Shown here piece after piece: positions 12,907 through 34,916 of a stretch of DNA of 35,549 nucleotides. The stretch is from a virus, in IMG/VR virus record IMGVR_UViG_3300021076_000645, positions 1 through 35,549 of that record, one strand, 5' to 3'. Position 1 is the stretch's first letter, and each line of letters begins with the position of its first letter. Made by a program: the position numbers and the translations under genes. The notes under the pieces are model-generated. The model had not been told where the DNA came from. It did not search any database and saw only the letters and a program-made list of their open reading frames with translations.

Positions 12907-13908
12907 TTAGAACGACAGCACGCTCTGCAGATAGAACGCCGCGTTTTTGCCCACGACCTTTTCCCCGACGTAATGCTCGCCGCGATGCACGTCGGATTTC
13001 TTGGTCTCGTCGCGGTAGTCCATGATCTGGATGAGGTCCGGGCCGCCGCCGCCGGCCACCATGCCGGGGCCGGTGCCGCCGGTCGCCTGCGTGACCGGGC
13101 TGGTGAATGCCGTCCAGTAGAACGTGCGCGCAAAGTTCGGCAGTTCCAGGTCTTCGCCCTCCTCGACGTGGGCGAGCACGCAATCGTGCCCCCAGATGTC
13201 GGCGGGAGTGAATGTCTGGCCTTCCAGGTTGGTGGCCAGCACAGATTTCGCAATGGCCAGCCCGCCCTGGGGCAGGTTGAAGTAACTCGCCAGCTTATCC
13301 TCGTTGAGCAGACCGGCACTGGTGTACTTGAACAGATCCACCAGACGCGGATGCTGCTGCAACTTCAGGAAAACCGCGTTGCTGATGACCATGCGGTTGA
13401 CTTCCATGCCGGTTTGCAGGCGGATGTATTCCTTGGCGGCGTCCACGTCGTCCTTCGGGTTGCTGGCCCCATCATCCCACTTCACCGCCACGCCGGCGTA
13501 AGGTACCAGCGCCGTATTGGTGGCCAGCGTGTGGACGCGCATTTCATGGTTTACCTTGATGGTGTCCACAATCTTGCGGACCTTGGCCAGGTCGGCATCG
13601 AAGTACGCGCCATACTTCAGGCGCTCTTCATCCGGCACCAGGCCTTCCAAGCCGTAGTTCTGGCAATAATAGTTATCATTGCTCACGGAGGAGACCAGGC
13701 GCGGATAACCGCTGCCCGGCGCGCGTGGTTTAAGCACAGGCACGTTGGCGAGTTCTTCCGCGCCAAACATGTAGTACGTCGCCGACTGCAGGGCGGTTGG
13801 GAACGGCGGCGCGAGCCGCGTGCCGACAAACCCCTTCGGGTCGCGCATGAACTGATTGGCGATCTTGGTGAGAATGGGGTTGAGTGTTGCGTTAGTTGCG
13901 ATGGACAT
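12907..13908 (-). CDS. Major capsid protein
   Basis: The 333-aa product begins MSIATNATLNPILTKIANQF and has features of the capsid proteins of Mu-type and related phages: GFVGTRLAPPFP near residue 27, KVNHEMRVHTLA in the spine-helix area, MVISNAVFLKLQQHPRLVDLF near 171 and a late KKSDVHRGEHYVGEKVVGKNAAFYLQSVL. Its place after the protease/scaffold and decoration-like genes fixes the role. It should form the HK97-fold shell. The leader contains AAACCAACAGAACAAAATAAC with no Shine-Dalgarno, notable for what should be the most highly expressed gene. Confidence 0.85.
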   Translation of the reverse strand: MSIATNATLNPILTKIANQFMRDPKGFVGTRLAPPFPTALQSATYYMFGAEELANVPVLKPRAPGSGYPRLVSSVSNDNYYCQNYGLEGLVPDEERLKYGAYFDADLAKVRKIVDTIKVNHEMRVHTLATNTALVPYAGVAVKWDDGASNPKDDVDAAKEYIRLQTGMEVNRMVISNAVFLKLQQHPRLVDLFKYTSAGLLNEDKLASYFNLPQGGLAIAKSVLATNLEGQTFTPADIWGHDCVLAHVEEGEDLELPNFARTFYWTAFTSPVTQATGGTGPGMVAGGGGPDLIQIMDYRDETKKSDVHRGEHYVGEKVVGKNAAFYLQSVLSF

Positions 13909-14410: not shown

Positions 14411-15004
14411 TTATTGGCGCTGGGCATTCGTGCGAACTTTGCTGCGGAATGCGTCCTGCAGCTCCGCGCCTTCCGGCGTGCGGGCAAAGGCGATGAACGC
14501 CTGGGTCTCGTCGGCGATCTTGTTGGTTTCTCCGTACGCCTTGGCCTTGGCCATGAAGATGTCCTCCGGCTCGCCCGAGGTGGTGGTTTCCGTGCCGCCC
14601 GCGGCATTCACGATCATGCGGCTGGCACCGGCGCGGGCCGGCAACTTGGACAGAACCGCTTCGGTCGTGGTGGCATCCGCGAGATACGCCTTTTCGTAGA
14701 ACTCAATCGTTTTGGTATCCGCGGGAGCGAGTCCCACGCGGCCGATGAACTTGGCCACGCCCGCCTTGGCCTGGGCTTTGAGCGTGTCGGTGTGCTGCGT
14801 CTGCAACGCGGTCAACTGGTCCGTGACCGGCCTGAGCGCGGCGGTGATGGCGTCGGTGACGAGGGTGTTATCCGCACCGGCTTTGGCCGGCGTGGCCGTT
14901 TCCGTCGCCTTGGCTTTCGCTTCCAGCGCGTTGACTTTGTCGCTGATGGGCTTGAGCACATTGGCGACGATCTGGCCGATCTCGGCCTGTTCTTCTGCAG
15001 TCAT
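14411..15004 (-). CDS. Nested in-frame scaffold start (Mu gpZ-like)
   Basis: The ATG at 15004 would give a 197-aa protein beginning MTAEEQAEIGQIVANVLKPI, identical to the C-terminal half of the protease gene. Upstream on the coding strand lies ACAACCAACCAAACCAAAAAAAG, the same AACCAA-type leader that precedes separate late genes, so this codon is likely a real start. In Mu the scaffold gene Z is nested in I in the same way. Evidence is the leader and the analogy; expression is not shown. Confidence 0.55.
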   Translation of the reverse strand: MTAEEQAEIGQIVANVLKPISDKVNALEAKAKATETATPAKAGADNTLVTDAITAALRPVTDQLTALQTQHTDTLKAQAKAGVAKFIGRVGLAPADTKTIEFYEKAYLADATTTEAVLSKLPARAGASRMIVNAAGGTETTTSGEPEDIFMAKAKAYGETNKIADETQAFIAFARTPEGAELQDAFRSKVRTNAQRQ

Positions 15005-15550
15005 ACTTTTTTTGGTTTGGTTGGTTGTTATGGGCGCCGCCTTGGCGAACGCCGCTTGTGTTGAAAAGCCGGGCCGGTTCACCAGCCCGCCGATGTTCTC
15101 GTTGATGAGGCCGAGAAATTTCTTCTTGCCCTTGCTGAACAGGAAATTTTGCGAAAAATAAGAAAACGCCTTGGCGCGCACGAGCGCGGCGCCAAACGGA
15201 TTCCAGTCCGGCTCCAGGCGCACGCCGCCCTTGATCGGATCATCACCACCCCAGAAGTAGCGCTTCGGTGTGAACGTCTTCTCTGCGTCATCATGGTTTT
15301 TATCCGCGAACGGCTGCGAACCTTCGCGGCTGGCGGCGCGGGCGATGAGATTTTGCAAATCCGCATTGGCCTTGGCTGCCACCGAGGCATCCACGTCCAT
15401 CTCGAAATGCTCGCCGGGATAGTCCTGCAGCGTGAACGGCACTTTTTTTCCGGGCGGAAAAACTTGAATGTCCGCCGGCAACGCACCGTCGGTGCCGATC
15501 TCCGGCAGCGCGGCCAGAGCCGAAGCGTAAATGGTGTCGAGTGTGTTCAT
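14411..15550 (-). CDS. Prohead protease with C-terminal scaffold domain (Mu gpI-like)
   Basis: The 379-aa protein has the two-part build of Mu gpI. Residues about 30-180 are the protease part: IQVFPPGK, YPGEHFEMDVD, an insert with WNPFGAALVRAKAFSYFSQNF, then ENIGGLVNRPGF, which equals the GLTNxPA step of this family. Residues about 183-379 are Ala/Lys/Glu/Thr-rich and helical, as expected of a scaffold. An internal ATG at residue 183 begins the second part and has its own leader, see the nested entry. The gene stands directly before the decoration and capsid genes. Confidence 0.78.
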   Translation of the reverse strand: MNTLDTIYASALAALPEIGTDGALPADIQVFPPGKKVPFTLQDYPGEHFEMDVDASVAAKANADLQNLIARAASREGSQPFADKNHDDAEKTFTPKRYFWGGDDPIKGGVRLEPDWNPFGAALVRAKAFSYFSQNFLFSKGKKKFLGLINENIGGLVNRPGFSTQAAFAKAAPITTNQTKKSMTAEEQAEIGQIVANVLKPISDKVNALEAKAKATETATPAKAGADNTLVTDAITAALRPVTDQLTALQTQHTDTLKAQAKAGVAKFIGRVGLAPADTKTIEFYEKAYLADATTTEAVLSKLPARAGASRMIVNAAGGTETTTSGEPEDIFMAKAKAYGETNKIADETQAFIAFARTPEGAELQDAFRSKVRTNAQRQ

Positions 15551-16178: not shown

Positions 16179-16393
16179 TTGGCACCTCCCGACGCGTCTT
16201 GCTGAGCCTTCCATTTCAGAAATGATTTCCGATTGCGGGCGTATTCCACAAAAAACTTAATCGTGGTAAAACGGTCATAAATTTTGCAGACCATACACCA
16301 GGCCAGGGACAGGCAAAAAAGGATGCCACCCAAGCAACAAACGATGATGCCGATAACCCACGAAATATAACGGAGCGCATCCACGAAGATCAT
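16175..16393 (-). CDS. Small membrane protein, unknown function
   Basis: The 72-aa product has one long or two short membrane spans between residues about 8 and 34 (YISWVIGIIVCCLGGILFCLSLAWCMV), with five Cys, and a basic C-terminal tail (KFFVEYARNRKSFLKW). It is coupled on both sides: the portal stop overlaps its ATG and its stop overlaps the next ATG, with GAGGTGCCAA upstream of each. A holin, a superinfection exclusion factor or a head-anchor protein are possible. Nothing in the sequence decides between them. Confidence 0.7.
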   Translation of the reverse strand: MIFVDALRYISWVIGIIVCCLGGILFCLSLAWCMVCKIYDRFTTIKFFVEYARNRKSFLKWKAQQDASGGAK

Positions 16394-18225
16394 TTGGCAC
16401 CTCGTCTTTCCAGCGCCCCGCGCACCACGCCATTGACCACGCCGGCGCTCATCGTTTGTTCAATGACGCGCTCCAGGGCTTTGTGATCCATCTTGTCGAA
16501 CACGTCCGGCAATTGCTTCTGTGCCTTGGCGATCGCAGCGATAAATTCCGCATCACTCACATTGCCGGCCTTGGCCTTGGCAATCAGCTCCTCGAAAATC
16601 GGCCGCACGGCGCCGAGCCAGCGCGGCGCAATGCCCGTGGCGTCCGCCAGCGCATTGTCCACGAGTTGGTGGTTGACTCTGGGCGCGGACGCTTTGGCGC
16701 GAGCCGCCCTGGCATTGGCGGGAAGATTTTCTCCGCCCTCCTCATCGGTGCCGCCGCTGGACGGCTGACCAAAGCCGGTTGCCGGTGCCTGGCCAATCAG
16801 CGCATCCTCGTCGGATTCGGGAATCTCCAGATCATTTTCGGAATAAAATTGCTGCTTGGAAACCCGGACGCCGGGAATGGATAGCACGGTCTTAAACTTG
16901 GTGGCTATGGCCACGCCGTCTTTTGACTGCTTGGCGCTCACCACATAGCGCGGGCATTGTGTGTCATCGCCAAAGTTCCGGCGGCAGATTGCTTTGACGA
17001 ATTGCTGGTTGATGATTTTGGCCGCCCGGCCGCCGACCGCGTGGATTTTTTCGTCGCGCTTGGTTTTGCCGACCGTCGCGCTGGCCTGGGTGCCGCCGCC
17101 GCGCGCGCCCGGTCCGCCATGCTCGCTCGACATGGCTTCGGAGAGAACCACCAGGTCGCAAATCGTATCCGCCGCATCAATCAGGACTTTTTGCGGATTT
17201 TCGCCCGCGCCCTTCATGGCTTCCAGCAGCTTTAGGTCCGTTCCGGCCGGGAACGCGGCATAGGCTGCACTGCCCATGTCGCGCAGCAGCGTTTCGACCA
17301 GGTTGATGGTTTCCAGCGTCGCACCCTGTTCCCACGTCGCCCAGCGCAACGGCTGACCGAATATCTGCGAGTAATTTAAAAACCACTCCCAGGTGAAATT
17401 CTGCGCGGCCCAGAAAAAGCCCAGGATGCGCAACATGCCGGAGTTGACCGGATGTCCGGACTTTTGCTTGATGATCGAAATGATGAATTTGTCATCTGGG
17501 AACTTCGTCCACATCGAACCATCCGCGGGCAGTGGGGCATCCGGGTTGCTGAACTTCACCTCCTTGGCGTTCAACATCAGCTCGTCGCCCGCGACCGGGT
17601 AATTCGGGTAGCCGTAATAACGCGGATGCACCCAGCGCGTCGCCTTCACCGGGAAATACATTTCCGGGCCGTCCCCCAAATCTTCCGTCACCGGCGTTTC
17701 GGGAAAATCCATTTCCAAAACCGAGATCGCCTTTCCCAGCGCATCCAGCACGTCATAAACCGTGTCGTCAAAATCGTTCTCGTTCGCCTTCGTGTCCGGC
17801 GACATGTTGTCAATGATGTGCTCGATGATCCGCGCCCGGCGTTGCGCTTCCGGCGTGGGCTTCTGGCCCTTGAGCGCGAACGGCTGTAGATTCCACTCCA
17901 GATCGTTGACCGCGTTCTTCAGCTCATTGAGGTTCTTCGTGAGCCGGGGCCAGGTCTGCTCCATCAGGTCGAACATCAAATACTGCGAAATCAGATTCCC
18001 CGCCATCGCGCCGCGGCAAATATTTTCTGTATAGGTCGGCGAGTACTGCGTCAGCGTCGCCGACATCCACCGATCGCGGGCTGACGGCCGGATGATCAGC
18101 GACATCGGCGACGCCGGTGTCGGGGTGGCTAGCACAGCCGGGGCAGTCGCCCGCGCGGCAGCGGCTCTGGCCGGCAAACTGGCCGGGTCAACGATGCTGG
18201 TACCGGCAATGAGAAATTCGCTCAT
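16390..18225 (-). CDS. Portal protein, DUF935 (Mu gp29-like)
   Basis: At 611 aa it matches the length of Mu gp29-type portals. The family pattern is visible as LTQYSPTYTENICRGAMAGN (about 59-78), SPDTKANENDFDDTVYDVLDALGKAISVLEMDF, HPRYYGYPNYP, QPLRWATWEQGA, then the conserved tail LVDNALADATGIAPRWLGAVRPIFEELIAKAK and LPDVFDKMDHKALERVIEQTM. The N-terminal 45 residues are Ala-rich and probably disordered. The portal is the DNA gate of the head. Unlike Mu, no F-type gene follows it directly: that gene lies 6.5 kb upstream. Confidence 0.88.
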   Translation of the reverse strand: MSEFLIAGTSIVDPASLPARAAAARATAPAVLATPTPASPMSLIIRPSARDRWMSATLTQYSPTYTENICRGAMAGNLISQYLMFDLMEQTWPRLTKNLNELKNAVNDLEWNLQPFALKGQKPTPEAQRRARIIEHIIDNMSPDTKANENDFDDTVYDVLDALGKAISVLEMDFPETPVTEDLGDGPEMYFPVKATRWVHPRYYGYPNYPVAGDELMLNAKEVKFSNPDAPLPADGSMWTKFPDDKFIISIIKQKSGHPVNSGMLRILGFFWAAQNFTWEWFLNYSQIFGQPLRWATWEQGATLETINLVETLLRDMGSAAYAAFPAGTDLKLLEAMKGAGENPQKVLIDAADTICDLVVLSEAMSSEHGGPGARGGGTQASATVGKTKRDEKIHAVGGRAAKIINQQFVKAICRRNFGDDTQCPRYVVSAKQSKDGVAIATKFKTVLSIPGVRVSKQQFYSENDLEIPESDEDALIGQAPATGFGQPSSGGTDEEGGENLPANARAARAKASAPRVNHQLVDNALADATGIAPRWLGAVRPIFEELIAKAKAGNVSDAEFIAAIAKAQKQLPDVFDKMDHKALERVIEQTMSAGVVNGVVRGALERRGAK

Positions 18226-18233
18226 AGGACCGT

Positions 18234-18404
18234 TTAAAAAAGGGTTGATGCCTGAAAAGCCGGTTCACGCCCCAAACTGGCTTGTGGCTGACCGATTAAA
18301 TTGCCAGTTGCAACGCATTGCAGGGCATTGCAGCGCCCCGGTGCACCTTTGGCTACGGACAGTGGCGGAAAACCGCCTGCGGGCATTTGGGGGGCTTGGT
18401 TCAT
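18234..18404 (-). CDS. Possible 56-aa protein between methylase and portal
   Basis: This frame starts at ATG 18404, overlapping the methylase stop (CCATGAAC), and ends with TAA at 18234, nine bases before the portal start. It is preceded by ATCACCAAACC, close to the non-Shine-Dalgarno leader used elsewhere. The product begins MNQAPQMPAGGFPP, has two Cys (RCNALQCVATG) and no recognised domain. The exact fit into the gap favours a gene, but the low complexity leaves a non-coding spacer possible. The gap otherwise holds a small GGCGG-AAAA-CCGCC hairpin (18364-18377) and two CTGCAATGC repeats. Confidence 0.35.
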   Translation of the reverse strand: MNQAPQMPAGGFPPLSVAKGAPGRCNALQCVATGNLIGQPQASLGREPAFQASTLF

Positions 18405-19177
18405 GGTTTGGTGATGAGCAGTTCCCCGAAGCGGACCTCGGAATGCGTGCGGTTATTGCATAACCGATTCTGCGAGCTGACTGCCTCGACCTTGCAGTCC
18501 TTGAAAAGTTCACGGTTAAGCGGCGAATCATCCACCGTCACAATCCAGTTGCCGGCGAGCTTACCGATATTCCGGCGGAGCTGACGCATCTGGTCCGGCG
18601 TCCAGCCCATGTAGGCTTCCGTCGGCGCGTTCGTGTACGGGGGATCAATGAAGAAAAACGTGTCCTTGGAATCGTAATTTTTCAGACAGCGCTCATAGGG
18701 TAGGTTCTCCACCACCACGCCATCCAGGCGCTCGTGTGCCCGGCGCAGCAGCACGCCGATCTTCTGGTGATCGAATCCCACGCCGCCGCCTTTCGTCTTG
18801 GCCACGCCGAAGCTGTGCATGCCGCCGCCGAAGCTGGAACGGTTGAGCAACAGGAACCTCGCCGCCCGCTGCAGCTCCGTGAGACCCGGCTGCTGGATGA
18901 AGTCATGAAGGTTCTGCCGGCTGGATTGCAGCCATTCCAATTCCCCCAGCAGCGCCGGCAGATGAAATTGCAGGTTGCGGTACAGCGCCACCAGGCTGCC
19001 ATTCAGGTCGTTGACAATCTCCGTGGACGCGCGTGGCTTGTTGAACAGGACGGCCCCGCCACCAAAAAACGGTTCACAGTAACAGACGTGCTCTGGGATC
19101 AGCGGCAGGATGCGTTTGAGCATCCGGCTTTTTCCGCCCGGCCAGCGCAATATAGGTTTTGCATTTTCCGTGTTCAT
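18401..19177 (-). CDS. DNA adenine-N6 methyltransferase, D12/Dam class
   Basis: The 258-aa protein has the full D12-class set: WPGGKSR (12-18) and EPFFGGGAVLF (35-45) for S-adenosylmethionine binding, EIVNDLNG (53-60) and the catalytic DPPY (178-181) followed by a partner strand. The family methylates adenine, often in GATC. Specificity cannot be told here. It overlaps the terminase stop by ATGA, which places it in the packaging operon instead of with early DNA-modification genes. No restriction gene is next to it, so it is probably an orphan that protects or marks packaged phage DNA. Confidence 0.92.
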   Translation of the reverse strand: MNTENAKPILRWPGGKSRMLKRILPLIPEHVCYCEPFFGGGAVLFNKPRASTEIVNDLNGSLVALYRNLQFHLPALLGELEWLQSSRQNLHDFIQQPGLTELQRAARFLLLNRSSFGGGMHSFGVAKTKGGGVGFDHQKIGVLLRRAHERLDGVVVENLPYERCLKNYDSKDTFFFIDPPYTNAPTEAYMGWTPDQMRQLRRNIGKLAGNWIVTVDDSPLNRELFKDCKVEAVSSQNRLCNNRTHSEVRFGELLITKP

Positions 19178-20814
19178 GAAAGTCTTGCCGGAATAAAAAG
19201 CGGCCGCGTGGAGATTCGCGACCCGATGCGGATCTGGCGGACTATATCCGCCGTCAGCGCGCCGCTGGTGCCATTTACCGCGTGCAGCGAGAGTTTGCCG
19301 CTGTCAAAAGTGTCGCCGTGCTTGCCGTCAACCTGCGGCTCGCAGACATACAAGCCGGCCGATTTCACCACGAGCCGATGATCCTCTTTGACATATTCGT
19401 CGCTCGGCATCGTCGTCCGGTTGTCATTGATAACCGCCGAATACAAATCACCGAGCCAAGTCTTGTAGTTCGCATCGCGGGCATAACCGGGCGGCGCCGG
19501 TTCCACTGTGTTGCGCGCATCCACCAATTCAAAGGGGACCATCCAGCCCAGCTCCTGGGCTGTCTCGCGGGCGAAATACTGCTCGTTGGTGGAATCAATG
19601 CAGAGCCGCCGCGCCGCCCTGGCTTTGCTCTGGCGCACCGCCATGATGATTCGGGCCAGCCGGTCGCGTGCGATTTTGGGATCTCGCTCTTTCCAGATGA
19701 TGATCGCGACCTCGACATATTCCACGCCGCGCTTCTGCATCACGGTGACGCTCGTTGGGTTGCTGGTGTCGTTGGTCGTGGTGGCCACGTCACAGCCAAT
19801 GCCCGTCGGATCGTCGGAGAGATTCTGAATCAGGAATTTCAGTGCCGCCTGAAATTCCAACTCATTTTCAATGAAGAAAAATCCGCACTGACCGATGCCA
19901 CGGCGCTGCGCGGTTGTGAGCGCAAACAGATCCACGGCCGCCGCACCGCCGAATTTATGCAACAGCCGGTAGCTCTCGTCTAATCCGAGCCGGTTGGCCG
20001 GGTCGGCGCAAAACTGTTCATAGGTCAATGGCTTGCCTTCACGTGTGTCGTACAACACATGACCGGCCGCATAGGCGTCGCAGAGCGACACGCGGTGAAT
20101 CAGAATCCCGTTCTGCCCGCGATAGAAATGACCATTGGCGTCCGGTGGAAATTCCATGCCGGGTTCCGGCAATGTCATTTCAAAAAATGGATGCCGGTCA
20201 TCCCTGGGCAGGTTCGACGCGTAAATGAGCTTGAACGTCCGATCGGTGTCCATGATCGGCTTCACGGCAATCTGCAAATCGCGTTCGAGATTCGGATGCG
20301 TGAACCCGGCCTCATCGCGGACCACCGTGCCCGTCCAGCCGCGGGCGGTCGCTGGATTCGGGGCGATTACGCGGAGCCGGGAATAATCCGTGCGGTTGTG
20401 GTACAGCCGCATTTCTAACCGGGATGAGCGATACAGGTCCGTGAAATCCTCCGTGCTCAAATTCGTGTAGAGTTTGCCCGTGTCGGAATTGGCGCACTTC
20501 AACGGCATGGCGTTGGCCTGCGAAGATTCATTCATTGTCTTCTGCAGCGCGGCCGCCTCGCGGGTGACCAGGGAAGCCTGCTCGGCCGAACTCAATGTCT
20601 TGCTCACCAGTTCCGAGCCGGTCAGCAGCGACGCGCTGGCGGCAATGACATTGCGGCCCGACTCGCGGGACATCTCATCAAACGCGATGTCGCCCAGTGT
20701 GGTGGACTTCCGGCACTGCCGCGCCCAGAACAGCACCATGCAGCGGACCTTGCGGACCGCGACCAGCGCGACTTTTTGGTAAAGCCGGCGAGTCCAATGT
20801 TTGGTGGCGTTCAT
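19174..20814 (-). CDS. Terminase large subunit (Mu gp28-like)
   Basis: The 546-aa product carries a Walker A variant ARQCRKST (31-38), a Walker B segment VVRDEAG (164-170) with the catalytic Glu, and a nuclease domain starting at IGCDVATTTND (Asp342 as likely metal ligand), ending with conserved AIIWKERDPK and later LCIDSTNEQYFA-like strands. This is the layout of Mu gp28/terminase_6 proteins, which cut and pump DNA. In a Mu-type phage it packages headfuls from integrated copies. Its ATG follows the small subunit stop directly (TAAATG). Confidence 0.9.
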   Translation of the reverse strand: MNATKHWTRRLYQKVALVAVRKVRCMVLFWARQCRKSTTLGDIAFDEMSRESGRNVIAASASLLTGSELVSKTLSSAEQASLVTREAAALQKTMNESSQANAMPLKCANSDTGKLYTNLSTEDFTDLYRSSRLEMRLYHNRTDYSRLRVIAPNPATARGWTGTVVRDEAGFTHPNLERDLQIAVKPIMDTDRTFKLIYASNLPRDDRHPFFEMTLPEPGMEFPPDANGHFYRGQNGILIHRVSLCDAYAAGHVLYDTREGKPLTYEQFCADPANRLGLDESYRLLHKFGGAAAVDLFALTTAQRRGIGQCGFFFIENELEFQAALKFLIQNLSDDPTGIGCDVATTTNDTSNPTSVTVMQKRGVEYVEVAIIIWKERDPKIARDRLARIIMAVRQSKARAARRLCIDSTNEQYFARETAQELGWMVPFELVDARNTVEPAPPGYARDANYKTWLGDLYSAVINDNRTTMPSDEYVKEDHRLVVKSAGLYVCEPQVDGKHGDTFDSGKLSLHAVNGTSGALTADIVRQIRIGSRISTRPLFIPARLS

Positions 20815-21985: not shown

Positions 21986-22326
21986 TGAGCGTTTGGTGTT
22001 GGGAGTGGGTTGCTTGTAGGCCGGGTGCCCTCACCCGGCGTTTTTAAAGTGGTAGTTGCAGACGGAGCGCCGGCCTCCGGCCCGGCGGGCAATAATTCGG
22101 CAACCGGATGCGCATGGAGGTATTGCAGAACGGACCAACCGAACGCGCTTAGAAATACGATGGCCAATTGCTGGACGGTGAGGGCGGTCACCTGAATGTC
22201 GAATTCGGCGCACGCCTGGTGCGCCGTGGCGGCGCCGCCGTAAACAATGAGTGAATTTACGGCGCTGTCGAACGCAGTCGCGTTCATCGCGAGCCAGTAA
22301 CGCAAGATGGCAGGTGGAATTTTCAT
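21982..22326 (-). CDS. Holin-like small membrane protein with repeat-encoded C-terminus
   Basis: The 114-aa product starts at ATG 22326, overlapping the DUF1353 stop. It has a weak N-terminal hydrophobic part (residues about 8-35) and a clear span at about 55-70 (AIVFLSAFGWSVLQYL), which fits a small holin. The last 35 residues are Pro/Thr/Gly-rich and are made partly by a 32-bp palindromic element (peptide KTPGEGTRPT) also found at the end of the methyltransferase gene at 34350. This suggests that the element inserted near the stop and lengthened the protein. A holin role is inferred from place and hydrophobicity only. Confidence 0.6.
   Translation of the reverse strand: MKIPPAILRYWLAMNATAFDSAVNSLIVYGGAATAHQACAEFDIQVTALTVQQLAIVFLSAFGWSVLQYLHAHPVAELLPAGPEAGAPSATTTLKTPGEGTRPTSNPLPTPNAQ
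22014..22045. repeat. REP-like palindromic element, copy 1
   Basis: A 32-bp block identical to 34391-34422. Its core is GCCGGGTG (22020-22027), loop CCCT, then CACCCGGC (22032-22039), a perfect 8-bp stem followed on the plus strand by G and five T. On the minus strand it is translated as the end of the holin-like gene. Its form resembles a terminator for plus-strand transcripts or a REP element. Confidence 0.85.
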
Positions 22327-24097: not shown

Positions 24098-24544
24098 CTA
24101 ACTGAGCCGGCGCGCCTTGAGGAACTTCACAATGCTGTCACGGGCCAGCAGCGCAAAACTGTTCGGACCATCCGCCTGCAGTGGACCGCGCACCACCGTC
24201 AGCAGTGGCAGCAAAGCGTAGATGTGCTGATGGCTGCAAGCCAGAATGCGTTCCAACTCCGTGCTGCGGAGGTCGCGGTTTGGCAGCAGCAGCCGGAGCA
24301 CTTCATCCTCGCCCAGCGCCGGCATCGGCTGCTGGTAGCAAAACGCCCACGCCGATTCGGCCCAGATACGGATCTCGCGCCGATCCGCGCCCGGTGCCGC
24401 AATGTCCCAGGCAAACCGGATGACCTGGTTCTCCACGTCAATCAAGAGCGTGTCATAATCGCGGTCAAAAAAATCCGCGCAGGAATCCAACGCGAGGGTC
24501 GGTTTCGTGCGCGGCAGTTTGACTGGCAATTCGAGCTGACTCAC
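24098..24544 (-). CDS. Putative DNA-binding protein with C-terminal excisionase-like helix-turn-helix
   Basis: The 148-aa product starts with GTG at 24544 (MSQLELPVKLPRTKP) and stops with TAG at 24098. Residues about 95-147 look like an excisionase/MerR-like helix-turn-helix: STELERILACSHQHIYALLPL, a loop, then SFALLARDSIVKFLKARRL, where a helix-turn-helix is followed by a wing and a final helix. The N-terminal two thirds contain DTLLIDVENQVIRFAWDIA and have no family I know. Lying ahead of the late gene block with a long gap after it, it is a candidate late regulator in the place of Mu Mor/C. The function is inference. Confidence 0.6.
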   Translation of the reverse strand: MSQLELPVKLPRTKPTLALDSCADFFDRDYDTLLIDVENQVIRFAWDIAAPGADRREIRIWAESAWAFCYQQPMPALGEDEVLRLLLPNRDLRSTELERILACSHQHIYALLPLLTVVRGPLQADGPNSFALLARDSIVKFLKARRLS

Positions 24545-24578: not shown

Positions 24579-24773
24579 TTACATTTCCACAAACATTTTC
24601 AGCGGCTTGAGTTTGGCCACCACCCGGCGACCGTCCATCACCAGGATGTTCCCGTCCTGGTCCGCCACCGGCGTGTCGCCGATCAGCACGGCATACTTGC
24701 CGGCCGTCTTGCGGTCGTAACCTTGCGCCATGATCTCGGCAATCAGTTCGGGAATAAAATCGGTTTCGTTCAT
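24579..24773 (-). CDS. Small protein after the F-like gene, unknown function
   Basis: The 64-aa product starts at ATG 24773, overlapping the F-like stop by ATGA (an ATG two codons upstream is possible). It has an acidic helical start (NETDFIPELIAEIMAQGYDRKTAGKYAVLIGD) and a strand-rich end (GNILVMDGRRVVAKLKPLKMFVEM). The GYDRKTAGKYAxLIGDTP part looks like a small conserved fold met in phages near gpF genes, but I cannot name it. It is probably co-translated with the F-like protein. Confidence 0.65.
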   Translation of the reverse strand: MNETDFIPELIAEIMAQGYDRKTAGKYAVLIGDTPVADQDGNILVMDGRRVVAKLKPLKMFVEM

Positions 24774-26224
24774 AGCCATCCCAGTTCAATAAACAGCTTT
24801 TCGATCGCGTTGGCCAGCGGAGAAAAATCCGCCGCGCTCCACTGACGATCCCCGGTGGATTGCGCCGACGCCAACTGTTGCTGCAGCAGCGGGCTGCCGG
24901 ATCGTTCCGCCACGAATTGCGCGTAAGCCCGCGCCCAAATTTCCTGCGGCTTTAAGAAATAGGCGCTGGTCTCATCACCATACGTCGCATAGTGGGCGCG
25001 CAGTTTGGTTATGGCCGAGGTTTTTTCGGCGGCGTCCAGCACGGCGCGCATGAGGGGATGGTTGTCCGTCGTGGCGAAACCTCCCTTGGCCCCGATCGCG
25101 TCGAGATCCAGAAAATGTCCGGTCTCATGCACGGCTGTCAGCGCCGGCCAGGAGCCATCCGGCCGGATGGCAATGTATTTCCCGGTCAGACCATCCGGGC
25201 CATACTGCGGCTGGAAATAACCCAGCCAGCGGCGGCTCGTCTGCCAGAGCGGAATCTCCGGCAGATTGCCGTCATCATGCACCTTGTCAATGGCAGCCAA
25301 GGCGGCACGCGCCTGATCCGCCAGATCACCATGCACCTTCAACTGAATTGCATCGCTCACCGGACTCTGCCTTTGTGGAGATAGCGACGCCTCCAGCTCC
25401 TTGTCCTCAGCGACCGTGTTCCAACTGAGGGTCTGGTTTTTTTCATCAAACTTCACCTTGTTCCCAAATTCCTTTTTCAGCTTCTCCACCAGGTCCGGCG
25501 CCAGCGTCTTGATGCTGGCTTGCAGATCCGTGTTCAGGTTCAAAAACTTTTTCGGCGCCTGGATGGTTTCGCCCGGCTTGAGCAGGTGCAGTTGCTCCGC
25601 CTCGTCCCGGTCCACGTCCTCCACGTCATGTCCGCAGCCCCAGCCCCACGGTCCCCAGGGCGTGCCAAAATCATGATTGATCACCAGCCACCAGATCGGG
25701 TCATTTTTCAGATAGACCTGATTTTCATATTGCTGGTGCAGTTCGCGCGGTTCCTTCACATCGCGCACGCGGATGAACCGCATGGCCGGGAACTCGTTCA
25801 ACACGTCCGGATCCATCCCTTGTTTCCACCACCCGAAATCCTGCGCCTGCCGCGACTTCACGTCGAAAATCAAGCCCAACCGCTGCTCGCTGGCGATGTC
25901 CGTCAGACCGCCCGCGCCCCGCACGATGCCTTCCTGCGCGAGAAAATCCTGCATCTGCGAAACAAAGGCCGCCCGGCTGCCGGTGGCCAGCATCGTTTCG
26001 CCCGCCTCCGTTTTCGTTCGATTGCCGGCGAGGAAATTGCCGAGCAGATCCTGGGCGCGTTGCAGCACGCGGGCAGATTCAATGCGGGAGGAAAAAAACG
26101 CGTTGTCGCGCAACTGCAGCGGCAGGTCGCCCCACTCGCTGCTGGTGAACGTGCTGCCGATCACGGACTGGTCGCCGAGTTTCTGGATGGCCTCGTCAAA
26201 GGGGATGGGAGCGATGAATTCCAT
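24770..26224 (-). CDS. Mu gpF-like head protein fused to a C-terminal zincin metallopeptidase domain
   Basis: The 484-aa product has two parts. Residues 1-215 resemble Mu gpF/SPP1 gp7 minor head proteins: an N-terminal PIPFDEAIQKLGDQS, a helical middle, DVKSRQAQDFGWWKQGM (122-137) and the closing WGPWGWGCGHDVEDVDRDEAEQL (about 189-211), where the family has a Cys-rich W-C-R-C-like step. Residues about 290-484 carry HETGH (366-370) inside ALTAVHETGHFLDLDAIG and PQEIWARAYAQF (Glu428), the pattern of zinc metallopeptidases found in phage and polymorphic-toxin proteins. MuF proteins with toxin or enzyme domains at the C-terminus are known as an injected-effector class. The gene is far from the portal, ahead of the lysis-like cluster. 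A virion-delivered protease is the attractive reading. Confidence 0.8.
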   Translation of the reverse strand: MEFIAPIPFDEAIQKLGDQSVIGSTFTSSEWGDLPLQLRDNAFFSSRIESARVLQRAQDLLGNFLAGNRTKTEAGETMLATGSRAAFVSQMQDFLAQEGIVRGAGGLTDIASEQRLGLIFDVKSRQAQDFGWWKQGMDPDVLNEFPAMRFIRVRDVKEPRELHQQYENQVYLKNDPIWWLVINHDFGTPWGPWGWGCGHDVEDVDRDEAEQLHLLKPGETIQAPKKFLNLNTDLQASIKTLAPDLVEKLKKEFGNKVKFDEKNQTLSWNTVAEDKELEASLSPQRQSPVSDAIQLKVHGDLADQARAALAAIDKVHDDGNLPEIPLWQTSRRWLGYFQPQYGPDGLTGKYIAIRPDGSWPALTAVHETGHFLDLDAIGAKGGFATTDNHPLMRAVLDAAEKTSAITKLRAHYATYGDETSAYFLKPQEIWARAYAQFVAERSGSPLLQQQLASAQSTGDRQWSAADFSPLANAIEKLFIELGWL

Positions 26225-29925: not shown

Positions 29926-30122
29926 TTTGCCACCTCCTCGGCCGGGCGCAGATCCACCATCCGCACCCAGACTTTTTCCCCGTCGCTGGTTTTTACCTGC
30001 GCGCACCCGCGCAGGATGTGCAGAATTTCCCCGGTCCGGTCCGCCGTCCCGGTCGCGGTGCCATTCACCAGGGCGCGCGTAAATGTTACCGTGTTGCCCG
30101 CGCTGTATATTGAGCGGATCAT
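29922..30122 (-). CDS. Small beta-rich protein directly after the MuB-like gene
   Basis: The 66-aa product has a strong AAAGGAGG before ATG 30122. It begins MIRSIYSAGNTVTFTRALVNGT and continues EILHILRGCAQVKTSDGEKVWVRMVDLRP, probably a single SH3-like or OB-like barrel. It overlaps the ATPase stop by ATGA, suggesting an accessory role in transposition or early control, but that is only context. Confidence 0.6.
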   Translation of the reverse strand: MIRSIYSAGNTVTFTRALVNGTATGTADRTGEILHILRGCAQVKTSDGEKVWVRMVDLRPAEEVAK

Positions 30123-31267
30123 ATACCCTCCTTTTTCTTCAGCGGTTCCGGCAGCACCCGCTCGGCAATGGCGTTCTGCACATAGTCAATCGTGAATGGC
30201 GCACCGTCGGCATCCGCCTCGTCCTTGGCGTCCTGCATGATTTCAAAGAAGCGCCGGATGCGGCCGCGCGCCCGGCCGATCTCGGTCAGGATATCCGCGT
30301 TTTCATCGGCCTTTTGCAGCCCCAGCGTGGTGGCGATCAGCACCAAATCTTTTTTCGGCGGAAAATTGGGCAGCCGCAGAAATCCGTCCCGGCCGCCCGC
30401 CCGGCCCTCAAATTGTTCCAGGTAAATGCTGTTTGCGTTAAACATCTGCTCCTCGTTTTCCGGCGTGATGCTCCAGATGATCGCGCAGCCCGTCTCGTCC
30501 TGTAGCGACCGCAGGAACTGATAGGCCGGCTGCTGCTCGATGTTCTTGCCCAGCGCCTGCAGCTTTTGGCTCGACTTCACCATGTCCTGCATGTTGTCAA
30601 TGATGATGCCCTTGGGCTGTCCGGCGTGCGGCATCATGCTCTCAAAAATCTTCGCCCGCGCCGGACCGTAGCTGATGCTCCGGCTGGCCCCGCACTTCAC
30701 CGCAAACCGGATCACAAACTCCTTCAGCGAACCGTTGTCGGTGGATTCCATCCATTTCAACAGCGGATTGCGCATCACCAGCTCTTTGTAGCTGGCCGTC
30801 TTGGAGGTGCCCGTCGGCCCCATGATCACCAAAAAACGGTTTACGCGATCGCGCCGCAGCTTTTTCTCAATGGCCCGCTTGATCGCCAAAAAAGTGCTAG
30901 TCTCCACAAACGGAATGCCGCCCTGCAGCAGCTCCACCCGTACCTGATTCCGCACCGCCTCAATCGCCTGCAGCAGATTCGTCGCGCTCACGTACGGACT
31001 CGGCAGTTCGTTGCCGTCCGCATCGTGCTTCCACCGCCCCTTCAAAATTCTCACCCAGTTCGTCTTGTCAATCGTCACTCCCACCAGCCGCGCGCGTTCC
31101 ACCAGCACGTCCACGTCGCGCTTGCACTCATCCCGCACAAACGTCTTCAGCCATTGGAATGGCTGCTGCAGCGGTCCGGGGAACAACTGCATTTCAGCCT
31201 CAATGTGCGGGTCATCCCAGTAAATGGTGACCGCCTGTCTCAACTCTCTGGATTTTTGCTCGCTCAT
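30119..31267 (-). CDS. Transposition ATPase, MuB-like AAA+ protein
   Basis: I take the ATG at 31267 (382 aa), which follows the AACCAA-type leader GACAACCAAAAAACCAAAG. A TTG at 31309 overlapping the transposase stop would add 14 residues. Walker A is GPTGTSKT (150-157) and Walker B is KGIIIDN (about 219-225). Downstream SITPENEEQMFNANS and GRAGGRDGFLRLPNF look like sensor and arginine-finger regions. MuB-type proteins bind target DNA, form ATP-dependent filaments and activate MuA. The gene follows the transposase directly as in Mu and B3. Confidence 0.88.
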   Translation of the reverse strand: MSEQKSRELRQAVTIYWDDPHIEAEMQLFPGPLQQPFQWLKTFVRDECKRDVDVLVERARLVGVTIDKTNWVRILKGRWKHDADGNELPSPYVSATNLLQAIEAVRNQVRVELLQGGIPFVETSTFLAIKRAIEKKLRRDRVNRFLVIMGPTGTSKTASYKELVMRNPLLKWMESTDNGSLKEFVIRFAVKCGASRSISYGPARAKIFESMMPHAGQPKGIIIDNMQDMVKSSQKLQALGKNIEQQPAYQFLRSLQDETGCAIIWSITPENEEQMFNANSIYLEQFEGRAGGRDGFLRLPNFPPKKDLVLIATTLGLQKADENADILTEIGRARGRIRRFFEIMQDAKDEADADGAPFTIDYVQNAIAERVLPEPLKKKEGI

Positions 31268-31305
31268 TTTCTTTTGCGTCCTTTCTTTGGTTTTTTGGTT
31301 GTCTG

Positions 31306-33468
31306 TCAATCGTCGGTAGTGCTGACGATCAAATTTTTCCGCGCCGCCGCCCGGTTCGCCTGCCGCTCCAGCCGCGCCGCCTGCCGGTCAAAATCCTCCT
31401 GGCTCACGCCCGCCGCCCGCTGTTTCAGCCGGTCGCTCATCCGCTGCACCGGCTCCGCCGTGGGCTGGACCGGCTGCGGGAAGTTGGATACGCGCTCCAC
31501 CGCGCCGACGCCCGACCGGGCCTCGTGCGATTGTGCGCCCACCGTGCCGTCCGTGCGGATGGCCACCGAGCTGCGCCGCAGCGCCTGCGCGTTCCGCCGG
31601 CTCGCGTCCAGACCGATGTCCGGGTCCAGACCGTAGCCGAGGATCCGCCGGCGGAAGCGCGTCATGCGGTTGATCTGCTCGCCCACGCCCAGGATTTCCC
31701 CGGCATGGTGCCCGCTGAAATTCTGCGCCAGCACCACCGTCGCCAGGCAGTCCGGCGCAAACGGGTTGAAATACAACTTCACCGTCGCCCCGTTGAAATT
31801 CACCATCCACTCCGCGCTGAAATCGAAAACCTCGCTGTAATCCTCCATCAGCTTCACCGTCGTCCGCACCTTGAACCCGCGCACCTTCAGCGGATCCGTC
31901 ACCACCGGCGAAAACATCCATGCCATTTTCGGATCCAGTTTCCGCAGATGCTTCGGCGCCAGCCGCTCAAAATATTCCTGGGGAATCCATTGGCCGTATT
32001 GCACCGACTTGATGAGCTGGGAATTGTGCTCCCGGATCGCCTCATGCAGCGCCTTCAACACATCCGCCAGCATCGGGAAATGGAGCCGGGGATCCGTGTG
32101 GCCATGCCGGCAACTCACCACCAGCTTGTTCGTCTCCTCATCATCCCCCATGAACCGCCCCACCTGGCCCGGCATCATGGAAAGCTTCGTCCACAGCTTG
32201 TTGAAAATGCCTTCAATGACCTTCTGGTGCGGCGACGCGGCGCGCTCAATCTTGATGTCCAGCAGGTTCAGCGTCTCCGTCACCAGCTTCGCCGCGCTCA
32301 CGCCGTGCTCCAGTATCATCGCCCGTGGATAGCCATGCTCCGTAAAGGCCGTGTGCAGCGTCGCCGTCAAATCCTCCGCCCGATACGAACTGCGCGGCCG
32401 CGCCGTGTAGTTGAATCCGGGAATGAAGTGGCTGCGATGATCTGCCGGCACCAAAAACTGAAACCGCCCCACCATCACGTGAAACTTTTCCGAGCATTTG
32501 TTCCCTGGCAAATCGAACGGCACGCAGCACACAAAATTGATCGTCGCATCGTCCAGCGTCCATTTCTCACCCGGCTCAATCTCCCGCTCCAGCCCCGTCG
32601 CCTCGTCAATCTCCAGATTCAGCGAGCCGGGCGACTCCACCAGTTTCAGCCAGGCATTCCGCGGCCCGCGATCTGCCAGCGTCGCGGCCACATTCACCCG
32701 CACCTGGTTGCGCATCGCCGGCGTGATGCAAACCTTGCCGGTGTCGAACCGGCTTTGGATGAGCGCCGCATTCTCCGGCGAGAGCAGCCCGCGCTTGAGC
32801 GCCACCCGCAGCGCCTCCGGCGTGCTGCCGGAAGTCGCGTTGCGGTTCGTCTGCAGCACCAGCGCCCGCACCGCCGCCGCCTCGGTGTCACTGAACTTGT
32901 GACCGGGCTTGCGCCCGGCTTGTTTGCTCTGTGGCAGCAGCGCGTCCAATCCTCCCGCCGCCTCGGCCCGGTCCCAGCGGTACAGCGTCTCTTTGGGAAA
33001 CCCCACCTCGCGCGCCGCCTCGTTATTCGTCTTGCCAGCCGCCTGCAATGCCCGGAACGCTTCCACCGCCGACCGCCGTAGCACCGCGGTTTTCAAATCC
33101 TCTTCCGTCACCGCAACTTTCGCCGGATCTTTCGCCACGGTAATGGTCCCGGCAGCCGTGAATACGGTCCCGGCTATGATCGCGACCGGGCCATTCGCCG
33201 CGCGTGCCACCGCGCTTGAAATTGTCTCGGCAGCCGGGGAAATGGCCCCCCGGCTGCCGGCTGATTGCGCCGGACACAGATCAGCACCTGCGTATGAAGC
33301 GGAACGGTCAGCACTGGGATTCTCGTCGGCCTGGCCGTTCCTCAGCCCGGCACCGCTGTCATATCTGCCGACGAAATTAGACTCCAGAGACAGCGCTTTC
33401 CCGCTTTCCGCTTTCCCGCTTTCCGCTTTTCGGGCGAAGGTTTCGTCTGCTCTGGAAATGGGGTTCAT
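31306..33468 (-). CDS. MuA-type DDE transposase, with Glu at the second catalytic site
   Basis: I take ATG 33468 (720 aa); ATG 33489 lies in the previous gene's end. Residues about 130-190 hold a helix-turn-helix (AFRALQAAGKTNNEAAREVGF), where end-binding domains of this family lie. The catalytic core has Asp306/307 in KWTLDDATINF, Glu387 in AMILEHGVS at the position where the family has Asp in a DNG-like step, and Glu419 in HQKVIEGIFNKLW. The C-terminal part includes a beta barrel-like region (VRTTVKLMEDYSEVFDFSAEWMVNF) and a basic, Arg-rich tail (SQEDFDRQAARLERQANRAAARKNL), typical of the domain that contacts MuB. The first 40 residues contain a short duplication (KAESGKAESGKA). Confidence 0.88.
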   Translation of the reverse strand: MNPISRADETFARKAESGKAESGKALSLESNFVGRYDSGAGLRNGQADENPSADRSASYAGADLCPAQSAGSRGAISPAAETISSAVARAANGPVAIIAGTVFTAAGTITVAKDPAKVAVTEEDLKTAVLRRSAVEAFRALQAAGKTNNEAAREVGFPKETLYRWDRAEAAGGLDALLPQSKQAGRKPGHKFSDTEAAAVRALVLQTNRNATSGSTPEALRVALKRGLLSPENAALIQSRFDTGKVCITPAMRNQVRVNVAATLADRGPRNAWLKLVESPGSLNLEIDEATGLEREIEPGEKWTLDDATINFVCCVPFDLPGNKCSEKFHVMVGRFQFLVPADHRSHFIPGFNYTARPRSSYRAEDLTATLHTAFTEHGYPRAMILEHGVSAAKLVTETLNLLDIKIERAASPHQKVIEGIFNKLWTKLSMMPGQVGRFMGDDEETNKLVVSCRHGHTDPRLHFPMLADVLKALHEAIREHNSQLIKSVQYGQWIPQEYFERLAPKHLRKLDPKMAWMFSPVVTDPLKVRGFKVRTTVKLMEDYSEVFDFSAEWMVNFNGATVKLYFNPFAPDCLATVVLAQNFSGHHAGEILGVGEQINRMTRFRRRILGYGLDPDIGLDASRRNAQALRRSSVAIRTDGTVGAQSHEARSGVGAVERVSNFPQPVQPTAEPVQRMSDRLKQRAAGVSQEDFDRQAARLERQANRAAARKNLIVSTTDD

Positions 33469-33469
33469 G

Positions 33470-34339
33470 TTATTTCTTTCCGCCTTCATTGGCCGCGTCC
33501 GCGTAGATTTTGGCGATCTCCCGCAGCGCCTCCGCCGCGGCCTTGCAATCCTCCGGCGTCATTGCCGTCGCCCGCTTCAGAATGGCCGACTTCACCTCTT
33601 TCTTGTCGCCCGCCGCCATCTCGTTCCACAGCCGGAACCGGTTGGCCACCCCGTCGGCAAATGTCTGCATGAACAATTCCAACTGACCGGACCGGTTCGG
33701 GTTGAACTTCTGCCCGTTCTTCTCCGCCTCAATCACCTGCACAATCCCCGCCTTGCACGCGCCCAGGCCGAACGGCTTGTCCGGGTCGAAAATCTTCGCC
33801 TCCCATTCCTCCCGAAAATCCGGCGCCTTCTTGAACGTCTCGTGCAGCCAGTTGGCTTGCTGAATAAGGTCGTGAGAAAAGCCCATTAGCCTCGACCACT
33901 CCTCGACCGTTTTCCCCGAAGACGATTCAATCGTGTTCGGAGAACATTGGCCTTTTCGCAGATTTTCCAGACGGCGAACCCTTTTTTGCTCGAAGGTTTC
34001 GCCCAGGATCGGGGCGGCCACATAGGCCCGCTGGCCCTTGGTCAGATTCCGGCGCAGCAACAGCTCGCGCAGGACGATTTCGTTCGCCTCCTCCGGTTCC
34101 ACCACCACGCAGGGCACTTCCTTCATCGCCCAGGCGCGTGCCGCCAGCACCCGAGTCCATCCATCCACCACCTTGCCATCCACCGTGATCTGGATCGGAT
34201 GCTTGATGCCGTTTTCCTTGATGTCGTCCTTGAATCCGTTGAACTCATCCGAATCCTCCGCCCAGCGCACCATCTTGCGCACAAAGGGCAGCGGTTGGAG
34301 TTTCGCGGGGTCCCGTAGTTCGATTTTCGTTGTATTCAT
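33470..34339 (-). CDS. ParB-like N-terminal domain protein upstream of the transposase
   Basis: The 289-aa product starts at ATG 34339 after CATTTTTTT, with no Shine-Dalgarno. Residues about 35-90 form a ParB/sulfiredoxin-like domain: IKENGIKHPIQITVDGKVVDGWTRVLAARAWAMKEVPCVVVE, where GxxxxDGWxRxxAA is the nucleotide-binding loop. A helix-turn-helix-like part (VEEWSRLMGFSHDLIQQANW) follows near 145. Such proteins act in phage DNA control as CTP-dependent DNA-binding clamps or nucleases. Its direct position ahead of the transposase suggests a role in early control or in plasmid-like maintenance, but this is inference. Confidence 0.82.
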   Translation of the reverse strand: MNTTKIELRDPAKLQPLPFVRKMVRWAEDSDEFNGFKDDIKENGIKHPIQITVDGKVVDGWTRVLAARAWAMKEVPCVVVEPEEANEIVLRELLLRRNLTKGQRAYVAAPILGETFEQKRVRRLENLRKGQCSPNTIESSSGKTVEEWSRLMGFSHDLIQQANWLHETFKKAPDFREEWEAKIFDPDKPFGLGACKAGIVQVIEAEKNGQKFNPNRSGQLELFMQTFADGVANRFRLWNEMAAGDKKEVKSAILKRATAMTPEDCKAAAEALREIAKIYADAANEGGKK

Positions 34340-34349
34340 AAAAAAATGT

Positions 34350-34916
34350 TCAGCGCTCCTTTGGGCTTTTCGACTTCGTGCCTTGAAATTTTGTAGGCCG
34401 GGTGCCCTCACCCGGCGTTTTTGAAAGGCTGATGGGTTGCTTCATGAAGACGATCCAATGCGTCTTAGCGGTGGCTCCGCATCTCTGTCCGAAGAGCGGT
34501 TTCTCTGGCGTGAGCGAGAGCACGGTCGAGACCGGAACCCGATGCTCGTTCCATTTAAAAATGAGCGTTCCGAGCGGGCATAGGACGCGGAAACATTCAG
34601 CAAATCCGGCACGAATTTCGTCGCGCCAGCCAGCCGACAGCGTGCCGTATTTTTTCGCAGTCCAGCCATTGGGACCGGCGAACGTGTGCGGCGGATCAAA
34701 GACGACCAGCGAGAACGTTGAGTCCGGGAAAGGTAGCGCTTTGAAATCTGCCAACACGTCGGGATCAATGACGATTTCACGCCTGCCTTGTCGTGTATCC
34801 GCCACGCACTTTTCTCGGCGCTTATCCACAAACAGAGCGCGCCCGTCAGCCCGGTCAAACCAGAACATCCGTGGACCACAGCAGGCATCCAGCACCGGAG
34901 GAAGATTTGCCTTCAT
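34350..34916 (-). CDS. DNA methyltransferase with DPPH motif; C-terminus extended by a REP-like repeat
   Basis: The 188-aa product starts at ATG 34916, seven bases after AAGGAGG. It has LDACCGPRMFWFDR (about 8-21), a Gly-rich S-adenosylmethionine motif, VDKR as an acidic strand end and VVFDPPHTF (about 70-78) as the catalytic DPP(Y/H) motif, with KWNEH later. Short proteins of this kind occur in phages as DNA methylases; target base is not clear (N6-adenine is most likely). The last 30 residues, KTPGEGTRPT then a Lys/Ser-rich tail, come from a 32-bp palindrome also present at 22014, so the original stop may have been lost. Confidence 0.8.
   Translation of the reverse strand: MKANLPPVLDACCGPRMFWFDRADGRALFVDKRREKCVADTRQGRREIVIDPDVLADFKALPFPDSTFSLVVFDPPHTFAGPNGWTAKKYGTLSAGWRDEIRAGFAECFRVLCPLGTLIFKWNEHRVPVSTVLSLTPEKPLFGQRCGATAKTHWIVFMKQPISLSKTPGEGTRPTKFQGTKSKSPKER
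34391..34422. repeat. REP-like palindromic element, copy 2
   Basis: Identical over 32 bp to 22014-22045. The stem GCCGGGTG (34397-34404), loop CCCT and CACCCGGC (34409-34416) are followed on the plus strand by GTTTTT. On the minus strand it encodes the end of the methyltransferase gene. Confidence 0.85.

Follow-up and report, generated by a model that had tools for sequence, protein, structure and literature searches.

The locus analysed here is probably a polymorphic-toxin cassette of the MuF type, in which a minor head protein carries a predicted zinc protease and is followed by the gene for a putative immunity protein, in a Mu-like temperate phage. It lies in IMG/VR virus record IMGVR_UViG_3300021076_000645, a stretch of 35,549 nt that is referred to below as the window. 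The assignment as a toxin–immunity cassette is based on a delivery part that stays fixed, an enzyme that is exchangeable, a small gene that moves along with it, and copies of that small gene that occur as orphans elsewhere. Judged by its gene content (a MuA-like transposase, a MuB-like protein and a Mu-type portal), the window is a transposable, temperate phage of the Mu-like kind, and its host is probably a member of the Verrucomicrobia. The features relevant to the analysis are the following.

24770–26224, minus strand: muf-zincin gene (484 aa), MuF minor head protein with a C-terminal zincin metallopeptidase domain
25535–26224, minus strand: MuF carrier domain, residues 1–230 (approximate), from phrog_220 and hhalign to PF04233-bearing N-termini
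25373–25534, minus strand: linker between carrier and effector, residues 231–284, where the C-terminal module switches in homologues
24773–25372, minus strand: zincin metallopeptidase domain, residues 285–484, from AlphaFold2, Foldseek and 41-sequence conservation
25277–25279, minus strand: His316, found in 41/41 domains
25115–25129, minus strand: HETGH, predicted zinc-binding and catalytic motif, residues 366–370, 40/41 domains
25106–25108, minus strand: Asp373, three residues past HExGH, 39/41 domains
24941–24943, minus strand: Glu428, predicted third zinc ligand, in EIWARAYAQF, 41/41 domains
24579–24773, minus strand: 64-aa gene, predicted zincin immunity protein or inhibitor, from ATGA overlap with the muf stop and partner-family homology
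24098–24544, minus strand: 148-aa gene 3' of the partner gene, context outside the cassette, with a similar gene at the same place in locus L143
19174–20814, minus strand: terminase large subunit (TerL), context, from P-loop-like ARQCRKSTT and RDEAG motifs and position
16390–18225, minus strand: portal protein, context, PF06074 Portal_Mu, E 7e-52
31306–33489, minus strand: MuA-like transposase, context, phrog_310, E 1.9e-18
30119–31309, minus strand: MuB-like protein
12907–13908, minus strand: major head protein
14411–15550, minus strand: head-maturation protease candidate, phrog_3017, E 1.6e-4
6374–8932, minus strand: tape measure

The open reading frame at 24770–26224, proposed in a first-pass annotation that did not give its strand, is real, and its translation was checked; WGWGCGHDVE, HETGH at residues 366–370, and Glu428 in PQEIWARAYAQF are all present in the 484-aa product. 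Because the transposase, MuB, portal, head and tape-measure genes are all on the minus strand, muf lies downstream of the transposition genes and at some distance upstream of the terminase and portal genes, and the order reads MuA-MuB-...-muf-64aa-...-TerL-Dam-portal. The large terminase subunit was assigned by motif and position since its product had no library match, and its homologues in related loci are likewise downstream of muf. The first-pass annotation had remarked that muf is displaced from the portal. As a description of the gene order this is correct, with muf upstream of the terminase gene and non-adjacent to the portal, but it does not hold as a special feature of this locus. The same separation is found in Akkermansia phage Chantilly and in loci where MuF has a short or another C-terminus, and, being common to related phages with or without the zincin, it characterises the carrier lineage; we have dropped it as a toxin-specific trait. 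A D12-type adenine methyltransferase gene (PF02086, E 2e-23) is located at 18401–19177, between the terminase-like gene and the portal. A 27–28 bp sequence that occurs at 22014–22040 and at 34390–34417 matches a single spot in L004 (2992–3018) with about 96% identity, and could be a short repeat or a regulatory site.

The N-terminal part of the protein, approximately residues 1–230, matches phrog_220 ("minor head protein and DNA pilot") with E 9.7e-14. A direct search with the Pfam MuF models gave no above-threshold match for the window protein, and the assignment to proteins with an N-terminal PF04233/PF06152-like domain comes from phrog_220 together with profile–profile alignment: hhalign pairs the profile of the carrier family with the N-termini of MuF proteins in other phyla (97%, E 1.1e-10), some of which reach the PF04233 cut-off. 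The MuF-like N-terminus of the first-pass annotation is thus well founded. In the structural model, low confidence is found at about residues 273–283, inside the linker between carrier and effector.

For the C-terminal part, Pfam returned only sub-threshold matches to LPD1 (E 0.0016, residues 418–441), Peptidase_M43 (E 0.12) and M64 (E 0.23), and Pfam alone would therefore miss the zincin; nothing above threshold was found for it in Pfam or NCBIfam. The LPD1 match scores 18.9 bits for the window protein and 22.2 bits for the best homologue, compared with the 27 required. Since these scores are below the curated cut-off, we leave the domain out of the Pfam LPD1/MPTase-PolyVal families, of which it is likely a distant relative. 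When the full-length protein is modelled with AlphaFold2, the pLDDT of the C-terminal domain is about 90–98, and the domain modelled alone reaches pLDDT 95.7 and pTM 0.93. In the model, HExxH is placed on helix 360–377 and Glu428 on helix 426–442, both past a three-stranded sheet, which is the architecture of the zincins of the gluzincin type; the metal-site pattern pointed out in the first pass is thus borne out by structure prediction. The top matches of the model in a Foldseek search of the PDB are zincins, namely 4l7a, anthrax lethal factor and PPEP-1 (E 3e-3 to 0.1, probability at most 0.90), although all of these are distant and none has E below 1e-3. Among viral models (BFVD), "Phage head morphogenesis" proteins come out best, with E 2e-14 and TM 0.85 for the top match. 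A PDB sequence search gave only short matches to ADAMTS-5 in the HExxH region.

Over 41 homologous domains, His316, Glu428, Arg432, Tyr434 and Gln436 are invariant, and His366, Glu367, Gly369 and His370 are conserved in all except one (L035, discussed below). The first-pass annotation had named a lack of conservation of HETGH in homologues beforehand as grounds for giving up its proposal; HExGH is kept in 40/41 domains. This degree of active-site conservation, together with the confidently predicted fold, argues that the zincin pattern has not arisen by chance. By alignment and modelling the C-terminal domain is confirmed as a zincin metallopeptidase, and we predict that it is a zinc enzyme with proteolytic activity.

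The first-pass annotation had also suggested a search for this domain in other MuF proteins, and it is indeed found on diverse MuF carriers, including bona fide PF04233/PF06152 MuF proteins of other phyla. The contigs, several of which are metagenome bins, have been assigned to Verrucomicrobia, Zoogloea, Methylomonas, Acidobacteria, Armatimonadetes and Planctomycetales, and further ones to Deinococcota, Chloroflexi, Spirochaetales, a cyanobacterium and Actinobacteria. The distribution is sparse, with 7/388 genomes positive in the phylum of L012, fewer in other groups, and two positive entries among 50,697 phage records, both of them Akkermansia phages; plasmids gave no match. Single-sequence searches of viral and genome contigs returned no matches, and alignment-based searches were required. 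Four weak family matches (L048, L050, L051 and L056) resemble other families in sequence, mostly other metallopeptidases, and were excluded from the members.

The carrier is not tied to one effector. Among 80 viral relatives of the carrier that we surveyed, the C-terminus may be short, a zincin of the window type (16, duplicates removed), another HExxH domain (L065, L066, L086, L098, L113 and L123), or a large unassigned region in proteins of about 900–1056 aa in total. A variable C-terminal enzymatic domain on a constant carrier, as expected of MuF toxins, is thus present. The exchange is visible in the DNA of Akkermansia phages. Chambord and L010 share 92.5% identity as far as position 18762 (muf codon ~321), have no detectable similarity over 18763–19629, and are 94.5% identical from 19630, 5 nt 5' of the terS start. 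The zincin and the small ORF that follows it have thus been swapped as one unit of ~0.87 kb between flanks that are 92–96% identical. L010 and L011 have a different HExxH domain and a different 78-aa ORF in the exchanged slot, so that each zincin type comes with a small ORF of its own. On this comparative evidence, zincin and small gene are a removable and exchangeable unit, and the MuF part is fixed.

Several related observations were made on the same carrier. L009 (7764–9221) has the same MuF part as L011 (7764–9608), which has the second HExxH domain, but in L009 a stop precedes the motif; as read from the sequence, the alternative effector is broken and the carrier part retained. L065, L066, L086, L098 and L123 have further HExxH types and, where it can be made out clearly, a distinct small ORF behind each type (80 aa in L065/L066 and 97 aa in L098/L123). 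The C-termini of L076 and L079 contain a motif of the type HNHPxGxGPSxxD, by eye that of a JAMM/MPN-type metalloprotease, with an overlapping ORF of 63–70 aa downstream. L063, L068, L070 and L087 have C-terminal extensions of 640–800 aa without Pfam match, and the C-terminus of MuF in L077 has a sub-threshold match to Kinase-PolyVal (PF18762, E 2e-4).

The 64-aa gene of the window starts in an ATGA overlap with the muf stop codon. An overlapping small ORF is present 3' of 26/32 zincin-MuF genes, compared with 38/157 (24%) of the other long genes in the same loci (p 2e-9), or 25/32 (p 1e-8) when one spurious ORF is removed. A 62-aa ORF that follows the gene in L025/L111 was rejected as spurious, since the true partner homologue is on the opposite strand. 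In an independent viral set, such an ORF occurs at 13/16 zincin-MuF genes against 3/21 short MuF genes (p 6e-5). Despite their divergence, many of the small proteins are related, and their common pattern is a helix followed by G-(Y/F/M/I), four residues and A, and then another helix followed by G-(D/E); a close group shares G18, D20, T23, A24, Y27, IGD and P35. In 16 of 26 leave-one-out trials, the profile puts the left-out partner in first or second place of 3086 small ORFs, and the ORF that most often outranks it is the inverted partner of L025. With a profile built only from the window and the genomic loci, the ORFs downstream of 9/16 zincin-MuF genes in the viral set are recovered at E<0.05 (best 1.6e-10), and no match behind non-zincin MuF genes falls below E 3.8. 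When viral contigs were searched with the close group alone, all seven loci recovered had a zincin-MuF upstream; six were already known and one was new, with the zincin-MuF directly upstream.

Position, homology and specificity of the small downstream gene are thus those of a MuF-toxin partner. Its retention does not depend on co-translation, as a partner homologue is kept in L025/L111 even though it is inverted there, and L004, the closest relative of the carrier (76%), has neither zincin nor partner. The partners are very divergent, and several genes in the partner slot (among them those of L018, L026, L040 and L041) do not match the profile; either the slot accepts unrelated small genes, or the ORFs were miscalled in these loci. 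When partner and zincin were tested for co-variation beyond that of the carrier, a Mantel-type test gave p 0.07. The window protein has no match in Pfam, PHROGs or NCBIfam, and partner proteins in general have no confident PHROG match. These comparisons assign the 64-aa gene to an uncatalogued family of small proteins whose occurrence tracks the zincin rather than the carrier, and its product is the predicted immunity protein of the zincin. The first-pass annotation proposed the 64-aa gene as candidate partner and added that no immunity gene stood out; the association of the family with the zincin strengthens the candidate.

Lone homologues of the partner are encoded in chromosomes. L145, L146 and L147, and L148 and L149, are such orphans from three genomes of the phylum of L012, two of them with a syntenic, non-phage neighbourhood. 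In these two loci of Verrucomicrobiota, no MuF or zincin occurs within 19 kb, and the neighbouring genes resemble, by eye from the sequence, a sulfatase and a glycosyltransferase. A broader proposal, which we put forward tentatively, is that many bacterial phyla harbour a metalloprotease toxin that phages deliver and that is paired with a small inhibitor protein of its own, and that some Verrucomicrobiota keep chromosomal orphan inhibitors as protection against it.

By analogy with SPP1 gp7 and Mu gpF, one copy of the protein, or a few, would be built into the head at the portal through the MuF part. Entering the next cell together with the DNA, the zincin would then cut a host protein in the cytoplasm of that cell, and, as suggested by the genetics, the co-translated 64-aa protein would bind and block the protease in the producing cell and in lysogens. 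Delivery by the virion is inferred from the MuF class, for which it has been hypothesised by Jamet et al. 2017 (PMC5576092). Of the 191 putative MuF toxins that these authors listed, 20% contain a metallopeptidase domain, and 89% have an ORF shorter than 150 aa behind them. The MuF carrier, the variable C-terminal effector and the small downstream ORF are common to that class and to the window. Unlike in the class, where muf is usually just after the portal in the packaging/head module, it is far from the portal in the window, and the window zincin has a specific partner family and no above-threshold Pfam or NCBIfam match; the metallopeptidases of PMC5576092 may include the window clade. In Bxa, a MuF toxin of a Bacteroides stercoris prophage with the immunity proteins Bsi and BAH (PMC11699363), and in Apk2 with its immunity protein IapK (PMC12226406), the toxin is neutralised by small proteins that bind the enzyme. 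The arrangement of MuF, C-terminal enzyme and small gene, with different enzymes on one MuF carrier, is similar to that in the window, but the effectors are an ADP-ribosyltransferase or alarmone synthetase instead of a zincin. The gluzincins of the lethal-factor/PPEP type share with the window domain the fold, a HExGH-type motif and the helix-borne Glu, but identity is ~12–18%, E is 3e-3 at best, and carrier and context differ; we make no claim of a common substrate.

MuF toxins with metallopeptidase domains have thus been described before, and what is new, as far as sequence comparison goes, is the zincin clade and its partner family, the former having no curated model above threshold and the latter being absent from the libraries searched (Pfam, PHROGs, NCBIfam). 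No metallopeptidase pair is characterised in the cited literature (PMC5576092, PMC11699363, PMC12226406), and the locus offers a compact conserved protease with a 64-aa partner that is directly testable. L004, where the cassette is absent, and L035, with a dead site, provide natural minus-controls, cultured Akkermansia phages have a cassette exchange with borders near base level, and with the orphan partner genes of host chromosomes the idea of immunity to a virion effector could be put to the test.

The nearest rival to the toxin–immunity reading is an anti-defence effector that is silenced during assembly, and here the polyvalent proteins described by Iyer et al. 2017 (PMC5512222) are the relevant comparison. 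Their zincin-like MPTase domains (PF18818, PF18796), which occur with LPD1, resemble the window zincin in the HExxH helix, the later Glu helix, an extra His and an Asp at +3, the last two being features of one MPTase clade, and in the LPD1 match, which in the window is weak and covers the Glu428 helix. The His of that clade is at the end of strand 2, however, whereas His316 follows helix 1, and polyvalent proteins are multidomain giants, in contrast to the 484-aa window protein with a single effector on a small MuF carrier. An injected metallopeptidase of this type would act in the infected cell on host defence or regulation, with the small protein silencing it during assembly. We regard this as rather unlikely. 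In its favour, no domain is commoner in phage polyvalent proteins than the zincin metallopeptidase, which is proposed to act on entry (PMC5512222), LPD1 matches weakly but repeatedly, and one distant match (L055) resembles a larger protein of the polyvalent type; the chromosomal orphan partners and the joint exchange of zincin and specific partner are nevertheless more typical of toxin–immunity pairs. The two readings overlap, and comparative genetics separates them incompletely.

It is less probable still that the 64-aa protein is a chaperone or adaptor for loading of the effector and not an inhibitor. Co-translation and effector specificity would suit such a role, but chromosomal orphans free of zincin and MuF, and the inverted, retained copy, fit an inhibitor better. 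A protease that cuts MuF or other head proteins at assembly, as in self-processing or head maturation, would agree with the structural nature of the gene product and with the auto-processing proposed for other polyvalent-protein zincins (PMC5512222). This is very unlikely, considering that the window has a separate head-maturation protease candidate at 14411–15550, that L004 and other short MuF proteins manage without a zincin, and that the partner gene is left unexplained. That the zincin is a catalytically dead structural domain is hardly credible: the MuF of an Akkermansia prophage (L035, 7077–8618) has lost the motif, which decayed to QAMAR, and kept the domain, but every catalytic position is kept in the other 40 of the 41 domains at ~30–40% identity across phyla. 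The partner gene is also absent from L035, which by its sequence is a natural loss of both motif and partner.

A minor observation relates to the partner frame in Akkermansia phages. In L001, L002, L005, L006, L008 and L038, a conserved small frame overlaps the end of muf, with no ATG, GTG or TTG at the usual place; it has an in-frame CTG, and a AAAAAAGG run is located just 5'. Translation of this frame may begin at the CTG, or a −1 frameshift may fuse the partner to the zincin, both being possible from the sequence.
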